The position numbers and the translations under genes were made by a program. This document shows, piece by piece, positions 26,272-34,102 of a stretch of 64,000 bases of DNA. Source of the DNA: Nitrospirota bacterium (GTDB taxonomy: Bacteria; Nitrospirota; Thermodesulfovibrionia; Thermodesulfovibrionales; JdFR-88); contig JACWAF010000032.1 in the NCBI GenBank assembly GCA_014874185.1, positions 35,620 through 99,619 on the forward strand, in the 5' to 3' direction. The first letter of the stretch is position 1, and every line of letters begins with the position of its first letter. The notes beneath the pieces were generated by a model. The model was not told the origin of the DNA. It made no database searches and was given only the letters and a program-made list of their open reading frames with translations.

Positions 26272-28719
26272 TTACGCCCCTTCTATCTTCACCGCCACGG
26301 TCGGGGCCTCGCCGTTTGCAGAGGGCTTGGTCAGGAGGTTCACCCTGGCGTGGGCGAAGTGCGCGGGCACGAAGAGCATCCCTTCCGGCACCTCGTCCGT
26401 CACCTTGGCTTTCACATAGATGGACGCGCCGTCTTTTGCCGTTATCTTGGTGAATTTCTCGTCAACCACCCCGTAAGTCTTTGCGTCCCTGGGGTTCACC
26501 TGGATATAGGCGTCCGCTATGGCGGAGCTTATGTTCTTGGATATGGTGGTCAGGCTGCCCGAATGCTGCATCAGTATGCCCGTGGCAAGTATAAGCGGGT
26601 GGCCGCTGTCCGGCATCTCCATCTCGGCCTGCTCGACCGGGACAAACGATGCCGCAGCCTGCTCCCTGAAGCAGAGGGAGAGGTGATTGGCTATTTCCGC
26701 GTCCAGGCCCTCTTCGTCCTTTGCCCCCATATCAAGCTGCATCAGGCGCCCAAGGTTCCTCAGTATCTGCCAGTCGGGCATGGAGGAGCCGGTCTCGGGC
26801 AGGCACTTTATGAACTTCTGCGGCTTTCCGGTGGCCCCCACGAAGAAGCCTTCCTTCTCGGCCCAGCTTGCGGCAGGAAGCACCACATGGGCCATCTGCG
26901 CCGTCTCGGTGAGCAGAATATCCTGGACAACCAGGAATTCGATGCCTTTAAGGACCTCTTCCGCCTTCGCCGCATCAGGGAATGTGACGGCCGGGTTCTC
27001 TCCCATGATATAGAGGGCCCTGAGATTGGGCCTGTAGAGCATGTCTTCCACATTGAGGCCGCCTTCGGGCCTTACTCCCGCCTCAAGCATTCCAAGCGTG
27101 TCGGCGAACTCCGCCGGAAGCCCCAGCGCCTCCGGCCCCCTGCCAAGCAGCAGGCAGAGGTCCATCAGGGCAAGCATGGTGCCCGTGCCCTTGGTGTTCT
27201 CCGAGCTGCCTATAGAGGCGAACAGCATCGGGTTCCTGGCCGAGGCAAGCGTCTTCGCTGCGTTCCTGATCTCATCGGCGCTGATGCCGGTGATCTCCGA
27301 AACCTTTTCAGGCGTGTATTTGGCAAGGGCCTCTTTCAGGGCGTCGAAGCCGTGTGTGCCCTCGGCCTTTTTGTCGTATATGCCCTCATCCAGCATGGCC
27401 TTCATTATGCCGTTTACCAGAGCGGCGCCGGTTGCTGGTTTTATCCTCATCCACCTTGTGGCCCAGCGGGCCAGCTTGGTCTGCTTGGGATCGGCCACTA
27501 AAAGCGTGGCGCCAAGATCGCGCTTTGCGGCAAGCACCTTTAATCCATAAATCGGATGCGTTGAAGTCAAATCGCTCTCAAGCACGAAGAGAACGTCGGC
27601 CTTTAAAGGCGCGTTCAGCTCCACAGGAAGCGCCCTTATGTTGAAGGCCTTTTTGAGGGCCTCCGATATCTTCCCGTATCCGAAGTGGGCGCGCGAATCG
27701 ATGTTCTTCGACCCCAGGGCGTCCATGAATTTTTTCAGCATGTAGTTGTCTTCTACCGAGCACCTCTCGGAGCCTATCGCCCCGATGGTCTCCGCGCCGA
27801 AGCGGGATTTAATCTCCGACAACCTTTCGGAGATATACCCCAGGGCCTCTTCCCATGTGGCGGGCTGCAGGTTCCCCTCTTTTCTGATAAGCGGGGTGGT
27901 GAGCCTGTGCTCGCTTTCTATGTAGTCGAAGCCGAACCTTCCGCGCGGGCAGAGGTCGCCCTCGTTAATTCCCGTGCCGTCGATGCCCCTGGCGCGCACG
28001 ATCTTGCCCTCCCTAAGGGAAAGGGTCGTGGTGCAGCCCACGCCGCAATAGGGGCAGATGTTTTCCTTGTCTTCAAGGAACCATACCCTTGAGCGGTATC
28101 TGAAGGGCTTCGTCCCAAGCGCCCCCACCGGGCAGGCGTCAACGCACTGCCCGCAGAACTCGCAGTCCAAAGTCTCCTCGAACGCCGGGCTCACCTTCGA
28201 TTTGAACCCCCTGCCAAGAAGGTTTATCGCGCCCACGCCCTGGTGCTCGCGGCAGACGCGCACACACTTGCCGCACAGGATGCAGCGGTTCGGGTTGCGC
28301 TCTATGAGCGGGGCCGCGAGGGACTCCGGGTCGTGCTTCCTCTCGGCCGCGAACCGGCTCTCCGCCGGGCCGTACTTGAAGGCAAGCTCCTGCAGCTCGC
28401 ACTCGCCCGCCTTGTCGCATATGGGGCAGTCAAGAGGATGATGGACGAGGAGCAGTTCAAGGACGGTCTTCCTGGCCTTCTCCAGCTTGGGGGTCTCGGT
28501 ATGGACGACCATATTGTTTTCAGCCGGGCTGGAGCAGGCAGCAAAGAGCTTCTTCTGTCCCTCCACCTCCACAAGGCACAGGCGGCAGCCGCCGTAAGGA
28601 GTGAGCCTTCTGTCCCAGCAGAGGTGCGGTATGTAGATACCGTTTGCCAGGGCCGCCTGCAAGATGGTGGTCTTCGGGGGAGTCTGGACCTTAATGCCGT
28701 TGATGGTTAGCTCTATCAT
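26272..28719 (-). CDS. NuoG-like Fe-S/molybdopterin-fold subunit with no evident catalytic Cys/Sec
   Basis: [2Fe-2S] CRLCLVEV, His-ligated cluster HHPLDCPICDKAGECELQ, two [4Fe-4S], ICPYCGVGC; NIDSRAHFGYG where FDH would carry Cys/Sec. Confidence 0.85.
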   Translation of the reverse strand: MIELTINGIKVQTPPKTTILQAALANGIYIPHLCWDRRLTPYGGCRLCLVEVEGQKKLFAACSSPAENNMVVHTETPKLEKARKTVLELLLVHHPLDCPICDKAGECELQELAFKYGPAESRFAAERKHDPESLAAPLIERNPNRCILCGKCVRVCREHQGVGAINLLGRGFKSKVSPAFEETLDCEFCGQCVDACPVGALGTKPFRYRSRVWFLEDKENICPYCGVGCTTTLSLREGKIVRARGIDGTGINEGDLCPRGRFGFDYIESEHRLTTPLIRKEGNLQPATWEEALGYISERLSEIKSRFGAETIGAIGSERCSVEDNYMLKKFMDALGSKNIDSRAHFGYGKISEALKKAFNIRALPVELNAPLKADVLFVLESDLTSTHPIYGLKVLAAKRDLGATLLVADPKQTKLARWATRWMRIKPATGAALVNGIMKAMLDEGIYDKKAEGTHGFDALKEALAKYTPEKVSEITGISADEIRNAAKTLASARNPMLFASIGSSENTKGTGTMLALMDLCLLLGRGPEALGLPAEFADTLGMLEAGVRPEGGLNVEDMLYRPNLRALYIMGENPAVTFPDAAKAEEVLKGIEFLVVQDILLTETAQMAHVVLPAASWAEKEGFFVGATGKPQKFIKCLPETGSSMPDWQILRNLGRLMQLDMGAKDEEGLDAEIANHLSLCFREQAAASFVPVEQAEMEMPDSGHPLILATGILMQHSGSLTTISKNISSAIADAYIQVNPRDAKTYGVVDEKFTKITAKDGASIYVKAKVTDEVPEGMLFVPAHFAHARVNLLTKPSANGEAPTVAVKIEGA

Positions 28720-30581
28720 GCCTGTTCAACTCCTTTTAGTTCTTTTTCTCTGGCCCTGGCGATAAGCTCGCCCCTGAGCCTGCCGGGGCCTATCTTCAGC
28801 GCGCCGAACTTGCAGGTCTCATAGCAGCTCCGGCATTTTACGCAAAGCTCCTGGTTAATCTCGTGCGGCTTCTTCCTCTCTCCGCTTATGGCCTTCTGCG
28901 GGCAGACCCTGGCGCACGCGCCGCAGCCCTTGCAGGTCTCCGGGTCCACATAGAATGTTGTAAGCGTGCGGCAGACGCCGGCCTTGCACCATTTATCGTG
29001 TATATGGGACTCGTACTCGTCCCTGAAGTATCTTATCGTGGAGAGTATCGGGTTCGGGGCGGTCTGACCAAGGCCGCAGAGCGAGCAGTTTATAACGTCT
29101 CCGCAGAGGTCCTGCAGAAGCTCTATGTCTCCGGGCTGTCCGCGCCCCTCGGTTATGTCCACCAGCTTGTCATGGAGCACCTTTGTGCCTATCCTGCAGG
29201 GCGGGCATTTGCCGCAGGACTCGTCCGTGGTGAACTCCAGGAAGAACTTGGCAACGCTCACCATGCAGTTGCTGTCGTCTATGACCACCATGCCGCCCGA
29301 GCCCACGATGGCCCCGGTCTGGACGATGTCTTCATAGGTGACCGGGGTATCCAGCAGGTTCTCCGGTATGCAGCCCCCGGAGGGGCCGCCAAGCTGCACG
29401 GCCTTGAATTTCTTGCCCTTTCTGATGCCGCCGCCTATGTCGTAGATGACCTTTCTAAGCGGTATGCCCATCGGCACCTCGATGAGCCCTATATTGTTCA
29501 CCGCGCCGGTCAGGGCGAAGACCTTGGTGCCGGTGGACTTCTCCGTCCCCAGGCTCCTGAACCACTGCGCCCCGTGCAGTATGAGGGGCGGGATGTTCGC
29601 GTAAGTCTCGACATTATTAAGGACGGTGGGCTTCTTCCATAAACCCTGCACGGCCGGGAACGGCGGGCGGGGTATGGGCATGCCGCGCTTTCCTTCCAGC
29701 GAGCGCATGAGGGCCGTCTCCTCGCCGCAGACGAAGGCGCCCGCGCCCTGGTAGATCTCTATATCCAGGTTAAAGCCGGAACCAAGTATGTTTTCGCCCA
29801 GGAGGCCATAGGCCCTGGCCTGGTCTATCGCAAGCTGAAGTCTCTGGACGGCCAGCGGGTACTCGGCGCGGACATATATGTAGCCTTTCGATGCGCCTAT
29901 GGCCTTCGCGCCGATTATCATGCCCTCCAGGACCACGTGCGGGTCCGCTTCCATCACGGAGCGGTCCATGAACGCGCCGGGGTCGCCCTCGTCGCCGTTG
30001 CAGAGGATGTACTTAAGCTCTCCGGGCACGCGGTTGCAAAGCTCCCACTTCAAGCCGGTTGGGAAGCCCGCGCCGCCGCGCCCGCGGAGGCCCGACTCCT
30101 TCACCTCTTTTATTATCTGTTCGGGGGTCATCTCCAGGAGGACCTTCGCCGCCGCCTGGTAGCCGTCCCTCGCTATGTATTCCTCTATCTTCTCGGGGTC
30201 TACGAGACCTTTGTTGCGAAGGGCGCGGAGCACCTGAAGGTTGAAAAACGGTATGTCCTTCATTACGGGCAGGGTGCTCTTCTTCTCGGGCTCCTTGTAC
30301 ATGAGCCGCTCCACCGGCCGGCCCTTGAGGAAATGCTCCTCCACCAGCACGGGGATGTCTTCGGGCTTCAGCTTCTCGTAAAAAATCCCCTCCGGGTAGA
30401 CTGTCATGATCGGGCCCTGGGCGCAGAAGCCGTTGCAGCCGGTGAGGACCAGGTTCACTTCCTTCTCCAGCCCGCGTTTTGCCAGCTCCTCCTGCAGGGC
30501 GTGCTTCACCTTCAGGCTGCCGCTCGCGATACATCCCGTACCGCCGCAGATCATAAGGTTTACTCTGTATCCTGTCTCCAT
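28716..30581 (-). CDS. NuoF/HndC/HydB-type NAD(P)H-FMN diaphorase subunit
   Basis: N-terminal Trx-like 2Fe-2S, GLRGRGGAGFPTGLKW, CGKCPPCRIGT, C-terminal CKGCGACARVCP / CVKCRSCYETC. Confidence 0.92.
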   Translation of the reverse strand: METGYRVNLMICGGTGCIASGSLKVKHALQEELAKRGLEKEVNLVLTGCNGFCAQGPIMTVYPEGIFYEKLKPEDIPVLVEEHFLKGRPVERLMYKEPEKKSTLPVMKDIPFFNLQVLRALRNKGLVDPEKIEEYIARDGYQAAAKVLLEMTPEQIIKEVKESGLRGRGGAGFPTGLKWELCNRVPGELKYILCNGDEGDPGAFMDRSVMEADPHVVLEGMIIGAKAIGASKGYIYVRAEYPLAVQRLQLAIDQARAYGLLGENILGSGFNLDIEIYQGAGAFVCGEETALMRSLEGKRGMPIPRPPFPAVQGLWKKPTVLNNVETYANIPPLILHGAQWFRSLGTEKSTGTKVFALTGAVNNIGLIEVPMGIPLRKVIYDIGGGIRKGKKFKAVQLGGPSGGCIPENLLDTPVTYEDIVQTGAIVGSGGMVVIDDSNCMVSVAKFFLEFTTDESCGKCPPCRIGTKVLHDKLVDITEGRGQPGDIELLQDLCGDVINCSLCGLGQTAPNPILSTIRYFRDEYESHIHDKWCKAGVCRTLTTFYVDPETCKGCGACARVCPQKAISGERKKPHEINQELCVKCRSCYETCKFGALKIGPGRLRGELIARAREKELKGVEQA

Positions 30582-30616: not shown

Positions 30617-31000
30617 TCAGTAGGATGTCTCGCTGCCCGCTACAAGGGCAAACTCGTCCACCACCTTGCCCCCCTGCACGTGCTCCTTGAATATCCTGCG
30701 GATCTTTTCGGGGTTCAGGAGCTGGTATTTCACCGGGGCATGGTTAAGCATTTCGACGGTCGCCATCGGCTCCCTGGAGCAGAAACCCGCGCACCCGGAA
30801 TTGGTGACAATCACATCCTTTATATTTTCTTTCGCCATCTCGTCCATGAGGGCGTTCATCACTTCCCTTGCCCCGGCGGCTATGCCGCAGGTGCCCATGT
30901 GGACGGTGATCTTGGCCCTGTATCCGCCTTCACGCAGTGTGAAGGTGGACTTGTACTCCTCTTTTATCTTCTTCAAGTCGTCTACTGTTAATTTCGGCAT
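30617..31000 (-). CDS. HndB-like thioredoxin-fold [2Fe-2S] ferredoxin
   Basis: 127 aa, MGTCGIAAGAREVM...NSGCAGFCSREPMATV. Confidence 0.85.
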   Translation of the reverse strand: MPKLTVDDLKKIKEEYKSTFTLREGGYRAKITVHMGTCGIAAGAREVMNALMDEMAKENIKDVIVTNSGCAGFCSREPMATVEMLNHAPVKYQLLNPEKIRRIFKEHVQGGKVVDEFALVAGSETSY

Positions 31001-31014
31001 TACAAGGCCTCCTT

Positions 31015-31962
31015 TTATTCGTATTCCTTCAGGATATCAAGGGCCGTTACAGGATTAAGCGAGCCGTGCGTGTCCTTGTCCACGACAACGACGGGGGCAA
31101 GACCGCAGGCCCCCAGGCACCGGACGCTCTCCAGAGAGTACTTCTTGTCCGGCGTCACCTCGCCGATATCTATGTTGAGCCTGTCCTTGAGCTTGGCCAG
31201 TATCTCTTCGGAGCGCTTCACGTAACAGGCCGTCCCAAGGCAGACCCTTATGTTGTGTTTCCCTTTGGGCTTCATGGTGAAGAAGGAATAGAATGAGACC
31301 ACCCCGTGCACCTCGCTTACGGGCAGGTTCAGCCCGCGCGCGATGTGCCTCTGCACCACGGGGGGCAGGTAGCCCACAAGCTCCTGGGACTCCTGAAGGA
31401 CAGGTATCAGGCTTCCCGGTTTTTCCTTGTAGCGGGCTATTATCTCATCCAGCTTTGCCGCTATCGCCTCGTTATAGTCCAGCACTCCAGGGCCGGTGGG
31501 GGCCGCTTTTCTGCGAAGCTCCACTCCCTTGTTGACCGCCTCTTTCAAGAGGGCCGGCGAGAAGGGCTTTGGAAGATAGTCCACTATGCGCAATGTGAGC
31601 GCCTCTTTAATGCTCTCCTGCGAGGGATAACCGGTTATGAGGACTATGCCCACGTCGGGGTCTTTCTTCCTGACCTCGGCCATGAATTCTATGCCGTCCA
31701 TCTCGGGCATCTTGATGTCGGTGACTATGACATCAAATGACTTCCCGTTATCGAGCTTCCTCAAGGCGTCGGGGCCGGACTCCGAGGTCTCCACCTCGAA
31801 CCCCTCCGGCGCGAGCACCCTCTCGCAGCTCTTCAGGACAATCGGTTCGTCATCAACAACGAGGATTCTGCCTTTCACCTTTGATTCCTCCTTGGCCACG
31901 GGAAAATTTAAAAGATCTTTTTCAAATACGGGGGCTGAAGCCCCCTTGGGTTCTGTTCTCAT
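31015..31962 (-). CDS. Fusion: response-regulator receiver domain plus NuoE/HndA [2Fe-2S] subunit
   Basis: N-terminal ILVVDDEPIVLKSCE..DVIVTDIKMPEMDG..LITGY..LPKPF; C-terminal SLIPVLQESQELVGYLP...VCLGTACYVKRSEEIL...VRCLGACGLAPVVVV. Confidence 0.93.
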   Translation of the reverse strand: MRTEPKGASAPVFEKDLLNFPVAKEESKVKGRILVVDDEPIVLKSCERVLAPEGFEVETSESGPDALRKLDNGKSFDVIVTDIKMPEMDGIEFMAEVRKKDPDVGIVLITGYPSQESIKEALTLRIVDYLPKPFSPALLKEAVNKGVELRRKAAPTGPGVLDYNEAIAAKLDEIIARYKEKPGSLIPVLQESQELVGYLPPVVQRHIARGLNLPVSEVHGVVSFYSFFTMKPKGKHNIRVCLGTACYVKRSEEILAKLKDRLNIDIGEVTPDKKYSLESVRCLGACGLAPVVVVDKDTHGSLNPVTALDILKEYE

Positions 31963-32555
31963 TCTTTTATTCCTTTAGTCCCCTCCCTGGAGGGGTAGGG
32001 GTGGGTATTAAGGGCATATGCCGCGGCCTGGGCGTTTATCTCTTCCCGTATGGCCGCAAGCACCGGCGGGTAATCCACCGGCACGCCCTCAAGCTCTTTT
32101 TTAAGTTCCGCCGAATCGAATTTATAATACGAATTCCCGCTTTTTTCCAATGATAATTTAAAATCCATCTCCGGATGCCCTCCAACCAGAGAGGCCATTG
32201 TAGAGCCCAGGTTCCCAATGGGCTTCCGGTCTATATGGCTTCCCTTGAAACTCGCCCTCAGAGTCGTGCCGGCGCCGGGCCGCGAGGTTATAGAGAAACT
32301 CCCTCCGCATTCCTCGGCGTACTGTTTCAGAAACGGTATCCCCAAGCCGAAGCTCTTCTTCTTCGGCTTGGTCGTAAAGAACGGGTCCGCCACCCGCGCA
32401 AGCACGTCCCTGTTCATTCCCCTTCCGTTGTCCTTCACTTCCATCTCCATCAAGTCGGCCTTCAGGTCTTCCCGCAGTGTTATCTCGATCAGCGTCGCCC
32501 CGGCCTCCACCGAGTTAAGGGCGATATCCAGTATGTGCAGCGAGAGGTCCTCCAT
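31959..32555 (-). CDS. HATPase_c histidine-kinase-like ATPase protein; C-terminus encoded by a palindromic repeat
   Basis: VKDNGRGM, DPFFTTK..GLGIPFLKQYAE, GAGTTLRASF; tail NTHPYPSREGTKGIKE; ATGA overlap with 31015..31962. Confidence 0.85.
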   Translation of the reverse strand: MEDLSLHILDIALNSVEAGATLIEITLREDLKADLMEMEVKDNGRGMNRDVLARVADPFFTTKPKKKSFGLGIPFLKQYAEECGGSFSITSRPGAGTTLRASFKGSHIDRKPIGNLGSTMASLVGGHPEMDFKLSLEKSGNSYYKFDSAELKKELEGVPVDYPPVLAAIREEINAQAAAYALNTHPYPSREGTKGIKE

Positions 32556-32556
32556 C

Positions 32557-33276
32557 TCAATTCAGGACAACCCTCCCGCCCTCCGCCCTAAGGGCCAGCT
32601 TAAGCTCCGAAAAGCTTGGGGCACCCATAAAAAATCTGTTCGTCCTTTTGCCTATGTCTTCAAGCCTGTGGGCGTCGGAGTTCGTGAGATAACAGGCGTC
32701 CTCGAACCCCGCGGGTTTGTTGTTTCTATTTATGATCTCAAAGGCATCGAATTCCATATCGGGCGGGATGAAGCCAAGCTGCGAGATAATGCTGAAGGAC
32801 CCCCTGTCTATATGGCTTGCGACCGCCAGCCCGCCAAGGGAGTGTATCTTTTGTATTATTTCATTTAATGAAAGGCGGGTCGCGCCTATGAGGAGTTTGC
32901 TATTGAACCCGAGCACCTCGTCCCGGGCGTTCACTACTACCTGCTCGCCCCAGAGCCGCTCGTCGTTTTCGCCGGGGAGGAGGGCCTCATAGATGGCCTC
33001 CTGCATTCGGAGGGCGTCTTGCACGGTCTCAAAGAGCCCAAGGATGTGGGCCTCCTCCCGGGAGGTCATCTCCATGGCCGGAATGAAACAGATCCCCACT
33101 GCCCGGGCCGTCTCAGCCGCGACTTCGAGGTTTTCGGCCGAGTTATGGTCGGCTATGGCTATGATATCCAATCCCAGTTCCGCCGCCCGCTTCATTATCC
33201 TCTTTGGCGTCATATCCAGGTCACCGCAGGGGGAAAGGCACGTATGGATGTGCAAATCCGCCGTGAATTCCCTCAT
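32557..33276 (-). CDS. PHP-domain phosphoesterase
   Basis: ADLHIHTCLSPCGDLDMTPKRI..IIAIADHNSAEN..SDAHRLEDIG. Confidence 0.9.
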   Translation of the reverse strand: MREFTADLHIHTCLSPCGDLDMTPKRIMKRAAELGLDIIAIADHNSAENLEVAAETARAVGICFIPAMEMTSREEAHILGLFETVQDALRMQEAIYEALLPGENDERLWGEQVVVNARDEVLGFNSKLLIGATRLSLNEIIQKIHSLGGLAVASHIDRGSFSIISQLGFIPPDMEFDAFEIINRNNKPAGFEDACYLTNSDAHRLEDIGKRTNRFFMGAPSFSELKLALRAEGGRVVLN

Positions 33277-33314: not shown

Positions 33315-33659
33315 CTAAGCGACCTCCGGTTTTTTTATGAGATTGTAAAAGATCCCGGCGACCTCGAAAGAGCTGAGGAAGGTGGAGAGCACAGGCACTT
33401 CCTCGGCGGCTGCCTTTATCAGTGTCTCCGGGTCTATCGGCTTATTGCCCGTTATCACTATCCCCGAAAGGCCTTTTATGGCCGCCACGGCGACGATATT
33501 GGGGTGTGTCTGGCGGGTTATCCACAGGTTGCCCTCCGTGCTGTTTGCCAGCACGTCGGAGAGCATATCGCTTACATAACAGCCCTTTATCGTGCGTTCG
33601 GGGTTTCCCGTTACCTTTGTCTCAAGCTTCAGTTTATCGATTACTTCGCCTACGGTCAT
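33315..33659 (-). CDS. DRTGG-domain protein
   Basis: GCYVSDMLSDVLANSTEGNLWITRQTHPNIVAVAAIKGLSGIVITGNK. Confidence 0.85.
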   Translation of the reverse strand: MTVGEVIDKLKLETKVTGNPERTIKGCYVSDMLSDVLANSTEGNLWITRQTHPNIVAVAAIKGLSGIVITGNKPIDPETLIKAAAEEVPVLSTFLSSFEVAGIFYNLIKKPEVA

Positions 33660-34102
33660 TTTCCCTTCAGGTTGATTGTTATTTCCAGGGTGGTGCCTTC
33701 GCCGGGAACCGAGTCCAACTTCAGGCCGTCGGAATTGTTTTTTATATTTGGAAGGCCCATGCCGCTTCCCCAGCCCATCTCCCTCGCCCAGTCCGGCGCG
33801 GTGGAATAGCCTTCTTTCATTGCAAGCTGTATGTCCTTTATCCCGGGGCCCATGTCTATAATGGTTATCTTCAGTGCATCGCCTTCCACGGCATAATGCA
33901 GCGTTCCCGCAATCGCGTGTATTATGACGTTCATCTCGGCCTCGAAGGCCGATACCGCCGCACGCCTGATAGTCTCGGGCGGCACTCCCAGATTGGCGAG
34001 CACGGTGCGCATCTCCTTCGATGCCGCGCCCGCGTCCATGAAGTCGCCTCCCTTCAATTGAAAGCTGCCCTCTAATGCCTCCATGGTCTCGCTCTCTTCC
34101 AC
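33656..34102 (-). CDS. RsbW/RsbT-like anti-sigma/serine-kinase ATPase
   Basis: AVSAFEAEMNVIIHA..DMGPGIKDI..MGWGSGMGLPNIKNNSDGLKLDSVPGEGTTLEITI. Confidence 0.85.
   Translation of the reverse strand: MEESETMEALEGSFQLKGGDFMDAGAASKEMRTVLANLGVPPETIRRAAVSAFEAEMNVIIHAIAGTLHYAVEGDALKITIIDMGPGIKDIQLAMKEGYSTAPDWAREMGWGSGMGLPNIKNNSDGLKLDSVPGEGTTLEITINLKGK

Follow-up and report, generated by a model that had tools for sequence, protein, structure and literature searches.

On the minus strand of the window (the whole stretch of 64,000 nucleotides analysed here) an operon spans 34102 to 26272, and one of its genes encodes a two-domain protein. The minus-strand open reading frame 31962..31015 joins a receiver to a NuoE/HydC/HndA-type [2Fe-2S] subunit, both complete, whereas the plus strand of 31015-31962 is broken up by stop codons. 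Pfam matches on this frame confirm what had been proposed from the sequence, namely one open reading frame with a Response_reg domain (residues 33-144, E 1.2e-28) followed by a 2Fe-2S_thioredx domain (residues 172-314, profile positions 2-144 of 145, E 1.2e-49). The residues named in the original prediction were all found: the DDE pocket, the Asp in TDIKMP, the Thr in ITGYPS and the Lys in LPKPF; the four cysteines of the [2Fe-2S] cluster are present as well.

The longest frame reaches to 31962, a start that requires the first ATG of the frame. The gene very probably starts at the GTG at 31878, giving a protein of 287 aa (31015..31878, minus strand), because an AAGGAGG motif lies just 5' of it, homologs start at the equivalent MK or MA, and the 80-bp spacer upstream contains a GC-rich hairpin (31929..31948, no strand assigned). 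The gap between the stop codon of the preceding HATPase gene and this GTG is thus probably about 80 bp, and the 4-bp overlap with the ATPase frame at 31959..32555, part of the original prediction, is probably an effect of the ORF caller and not biological.

In the 287-aa numbering, the CheY-like receiver occupies about residues 2-118 (31525..31875, minus strand), placed by Pfam, residue counts and the fold model. It is followed by a variable linker (31459..31524), recognised by low pLDDT and variable identity, and by the NuoE/HydC-type thioredoxin-like [2Fe-2S] domain (31015..31458), placed by Pfam, its cluster cysteines and its nearest solved chains, which are HydC subunits. The monomer structure model contains two confident domains, with the receiver at a pLDDT of mostly 79-97 and linker residues 126-133 below 50, and no confident arrangement of one against the other (pTM 0.49). 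A fold search likewise matched HydC-type subunits and receivers separately, as the two domains only.

The receiver has the residues expected of a response regulator, with the acidic pair D9/D10, the phospho-accepting D54, T82, Y101 and K104. Relatives give full-length matches to the fusion protein at 46-78% identity, far more than chance would give. In a set of 67 non-redundant fusions, one of which is truncated before the pocket, the five phosphorylation residues (Asp, Asp, Asp, Thr/Ser, Lys) are intact in the window protein and in 62 of the 66 proteins covering the pocket, so that the phospho-site, whose absence from homologs would have counted against the original prediction, is largely conserved. 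The Tyr/Phe switch residue and the four cluster cysteines of the NuoE part (C213, C218, C254, C258) are kept in 67/67. In pairwise comparison of close relatives both domains are under purifying selection and the linker is variable (30-73% identity); the dN/dS values of the nearest pair, about 0.15 for the receiver, 0.08 for the NuoE domain and 0.3 for the linker, are rough ratios since synonymous divergence is near saturation.

The four fusions that have lost the pocket are L083:9995-10846, L128:8913-9794, L130:7817-8683 and L132:9513-10499; locus L129 was left out as a duplicate of L083, with an identical gene layout. The loss of the pocket and retention of the fusion at L083/L129, L128, L130 and L132 show that phosphorylation is dispensable in some lineages, and these proteins are natural controls for its role.

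The predicted bifurcating core of the operon

The genes downstream of the fusion belong to the Bfu family (HydABC and relatives; PMC9304861). The BfuB/HydB subunit (28716..30581, minus strand) has the FMN/NADH site and the cysteine sets for the BfuB clusters, and aligns end to end with HydB of bifurcating NiFe and FeFe hydrogenases (PDB chains 7t2r_B and 7q4v_B; 858 and 840 bits). It matches the Pfam families PF01512, PF10589 and PF00037, and PF10531 at 27.1 bits (cut-off 27), and it combines the FMN/NADH fold, the SLBB and NADH_4Fe-4S domains and the extra [4Fe-4S] domains by which a Bfu-type BfuB is recognised. Twenty-two Cys columns are conserved, each in at least 20 of 21 sequences, their assignment to clusters being by homology only. 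Complex I NuoE, NuoF and NuoG are homologous to the window subunits, but NuoF matches only about residues 128-530 of this BfuB and lacks the thioredoxin-like domain of the BfuB N-terminus and the two-[4Fe-4S] domain of its C-terminus.

The BfuA subunit (26272..28719, minus strand) is a relative of NuoG and of the alpha subunits of formate dehydrogenases, and it matches Fer2_4, NADH-G_4Fe-4S_3 and Fer4, as a BfuA homolog does. Where the formate dehydrogenase chain 7vw6_A has Cys-His, the window protein has Gly-Tyr, and none of 20 aligned homologs has an active-site Cys or Sec at this position. Formate dehydrogenase activity is therefore not expected, and on sequence we rejected BfuA as a working formate dehydrogenase. 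The large subunit was also rejected as an [FeFe] hydrogenase, being NuoG/formate dehydrogenase-like and without a recognised H-cluster domain. A small thioredoxin-like [2Fe-2S] protein resembling HndB (30617..31000, minus strand) has weak family scores and a conserved position between the fusion and BfuB.

The sequence definition of the Bfu family (PMC9304861) places the operon among those encoding a HydABC/Hnd-type electron-bifurcating core. Shared with the family are a full-length BfuB with its Fe-S cysteine sets, a NuoE-type BfuC and a BfuA with NuoG-like cluster domains in the same operon; different are the N-terminal receiver on BfuC and the pterin-type domain of BfuA without an active-site Cys or Sec. 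Fdh-Bfu Type 1 (PMC9304861), with a formate dehydrogenase domain in BfuA, shares the pterin-oxidoreductase domain after the NuoG-like cluster domains, whereas the window protein has Gly for the catalytic Cys/Sec. The fusion protein is best explained as BfuC (HydC/HndA) in a soluble, electron-bifurcating NADH/ferredoxin oxidoreductase of Bfu type, with a functional-looking receiver carried at its N-terminus on a flexible tether.

The HndABCD operon of Solidesulfovibrio fructosivorans encodes, in order, a NuoE-like, a small HndB-like, a NuoF-like and a large subunit. The window shares this four-gene layout, but without an [FeFe] hydrogenase as the large subunit, and its NuoE-like subunit bears a receiver.

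Distribution and neighbouring signalling genes

Named relatives put the source genome in Nitrospirota, close to Thermodesulfovibrionales. Counting the architecture across genomes, as had been suggested, we found by profile search, among the matches listed, that 41 of 68 genomes of its class, Thermodesulfovibrionia, have the full-length fusion, against 0 of 130 other Nitrospirota genomes (198 genomes in all). The closest NuoE homologs in the other Nitrospirota classes are stand-alone proteins of about 170-210 aa. Among 198 genomes from the phylum of locus L089, a Deltaproteobacteria-labelled relative, a close NuoE was found in 49 and a receiver extension in none. In the tree the NuoE parts of the fusions group as one clade (n=67, support 0.63), which is most simply read as a single fusion event, though the support is modest.

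Upstream of the fusion, all on the minus strand, lie genes for a single-domain GHKL/HATPase_c protein (31959..32555), a PHP-domain protein (32557..33276), a DRTGG-domain protein (33315..33659) and a SpoIIAB/RsbW-like ATPase (33656..34102), the last three assigned by domain match and conservation of the cassette. In other bacteria the cassette of DRTGG, SpoIIAB-like, DRTGG, PHP and HATPase proteins stands 5' of a receiver-less NuoE. In three of the compared loci (L084:7032-7961, L085:7161-8114 and L086:3401-4357) the SpoIIAB-like protein has an N-terminal extension resembling, by eye, a CBS-domain pair, which hints that the cassette senses adenine nucleotides. In one lineage, at L045:7331-8182 and in the same way at L081, a receiver is fused to the SpoIIAB/RsbW-like protein; the L045 receiver scores 178 bits against the fusion-receiver profile, whereas the lone receivers and those of GcvH type at the compared loci reach at most 142.

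Full flanks are available for 49 fusion loci. BfuB and BfuA lie close by in 48 of these loci, and 44 have at least one of three two-component genes: a histidine kinase of the type recurring with the cassette (22 loci), a lone receiver (27) or a receiver-GcvH-like protein (35). Among the receiver-less NuoE loci L084-L127, any receiver gene is present in only three. The receiver-GcvH-like protein, a receiver fused to a glycine-cleavage-H-like barrel (for example L034:6698-7471, L031:12046-12813 and L036:3769-4656), is a second unusual receiver output; two of these three proteins give weak GCV_H matches, and by eye the usual lipoyl position is without Lys. A search of the window genome for such a partner returned receiver-domain matches only.

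The kinases at these loci are HAMP-HisKA-HATPase proteins, and the sensor region of most contains a single CxxCH motif. The window genome has a 60%-identical HAMP-HisKA ortholog (L154:8397-10052) on contig C23 (G000:C23:61414-62955), unlinked to the fusion locus, which has no CxxCH but retains a Cys-x4-Cys-His motif. We did not take every cassette kinase to be a c-haem sensor, since most have one CxxCH and this one none. A receiver search of the window genome found no match on C23, so the kinase looks like an orphan. The genome contains many other kinases.

Possible roles of the receiver

Like CheB and PleD, response regulators whose output is enzymatic, the fusion has an N-terminal receiver, a linker and a C-terminal effector, but its effector is a subunit that transfers electrons within a metabolic complex. 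The C-terminal domain of HydC shifts between sites near FMN and near cluster B2 and has been proposed as the bifurcation gate (PMC8880783, PMC9304861). A receiver tethered on the N-terminal side of BfuC could bias this motion. We consider it the likeliest of several readings, at a probability of about 0.5, that the receiver, once phosphorylated, modulates the bifurcating enzyme. A sensor kinase, best represented here by the unlinked HAMP-HisKA protein on C23, would phosphorylate D54; the T82/Y101 switch would then reshape the output face of the receiver, which would dock on the moving parts of HydC and HydB or release from them, thereby raising or lowering electron transfer through cluster C1. 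In this scheme we infer the acting kinase, the occurrence of phosphorylation and the direction of its effect. Points against the scheme are the fusions that have lost the pocket, a kinase gene unlinked to the fusion in a genome with many other kinases, and the low confidence of the modelled domain arrangement.

Signalling might instead run in the reverse direction, with the Bfu complex acting as a redox sensor in which the NADH/ferredoxin state of BfuC sets how easily the receiver is phosphorylated or dephosphorylated, the phosphorelay feeding the NtrC-like regulator present in some relatives. The redox state of the core would then set the phosphorylation of its own receiver and inform an array of receiver proteins, instead of or besides gating. 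NtrC-like, CheY-like and receiver-GcvH-like genes do share fusion loci in relatives, and in BfuA Gly replaces the Cys/Sec of formate dehydrogenase and no catalytic residue is recognisable, which would suit a sensor. However, the NuoG subunit of complex I also has no catalytic residue and yet conducts electrons, so no sensor role follows from the loss in BfuA. The window locus has neither an NtrC-like nor a lone receiver gene, and the bifurcating core has conserved cluster ligands, which makes this direction of signalling, and the receiver array it would inform, possible but doubtful.

Similarly tentative is the idea that the receiver serves constitutively for docking or oligomerisation and brings the enzyme close to a kinase or another receiver protein, phosphorylation being incidental. 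The four fusions that keep the receiver without a working pocket are consistent with this, as is the distribution of the receiver-GcvH-like gene, which is found at 0/4 of their loci versus 35/45 of the others (Fisher p 0.005, uncorrected for kinship). A pocket and switch intact in 62/66 fusions, however, are more than pure scaffolding needs.

The original prediction named the adjacent ATPase as the candidate partner of the receiver, and a role as its kinase is now very improbable. Its gene lies directly upstream of the fusion in the window genome, its ATP-binding motifs appear intact and the cassette is conserved. However, the protein gives HATPase_c-type matches only (residues 8-104) and lacks a recognised HisKA/DHp domain with a phospho-accepting His; its gene is directly upstream of a receiver-less NuoE in 23/37 loci of other bacteria and is missing from 20/49 full-flank fusion loci. 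The HATPase thus comes with an older cassette and is not specific to the receiver, and as a dedicated kinase it is disfavoured, being a single domain in a cassette shared with receiver-less NuoE loci. The unlinked HAMP-HisKA protein is, on sequence, the better candidate. A frameshift or assembly artefact joining two genes, which the original prediction had raised against itself, is excluded, as the 67 non-redundant fusions come from many independent assemblies and families and their NuoE parts form one clade.

The main text of PMC9304861 makes no mention of a receiver or response regulator, and the open-access literature searched, itself incomplete, held nothing relevant on a receiver fused to NuoE or HydC. 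The fusion is real and conserved; as an architecture it is apparently undescribed, a Bfu-family variant whose receiver has an unusual output.

In anaerobes the balance between NADH and ferredoxin is set by electron bifurcation, for which no direct control by signals has, to our knowledge, been described. With the receiver on the proposed gate subunit, such control would be accessible to standard receiver chemistry (BeF3, Asp mutants). If phosphorylation does modulate the enzyme, a signalling kinase could tune central electron flow up or down directly, beyond gene expression, and the outputs of response regulators would gain an electron-transfer subunit.
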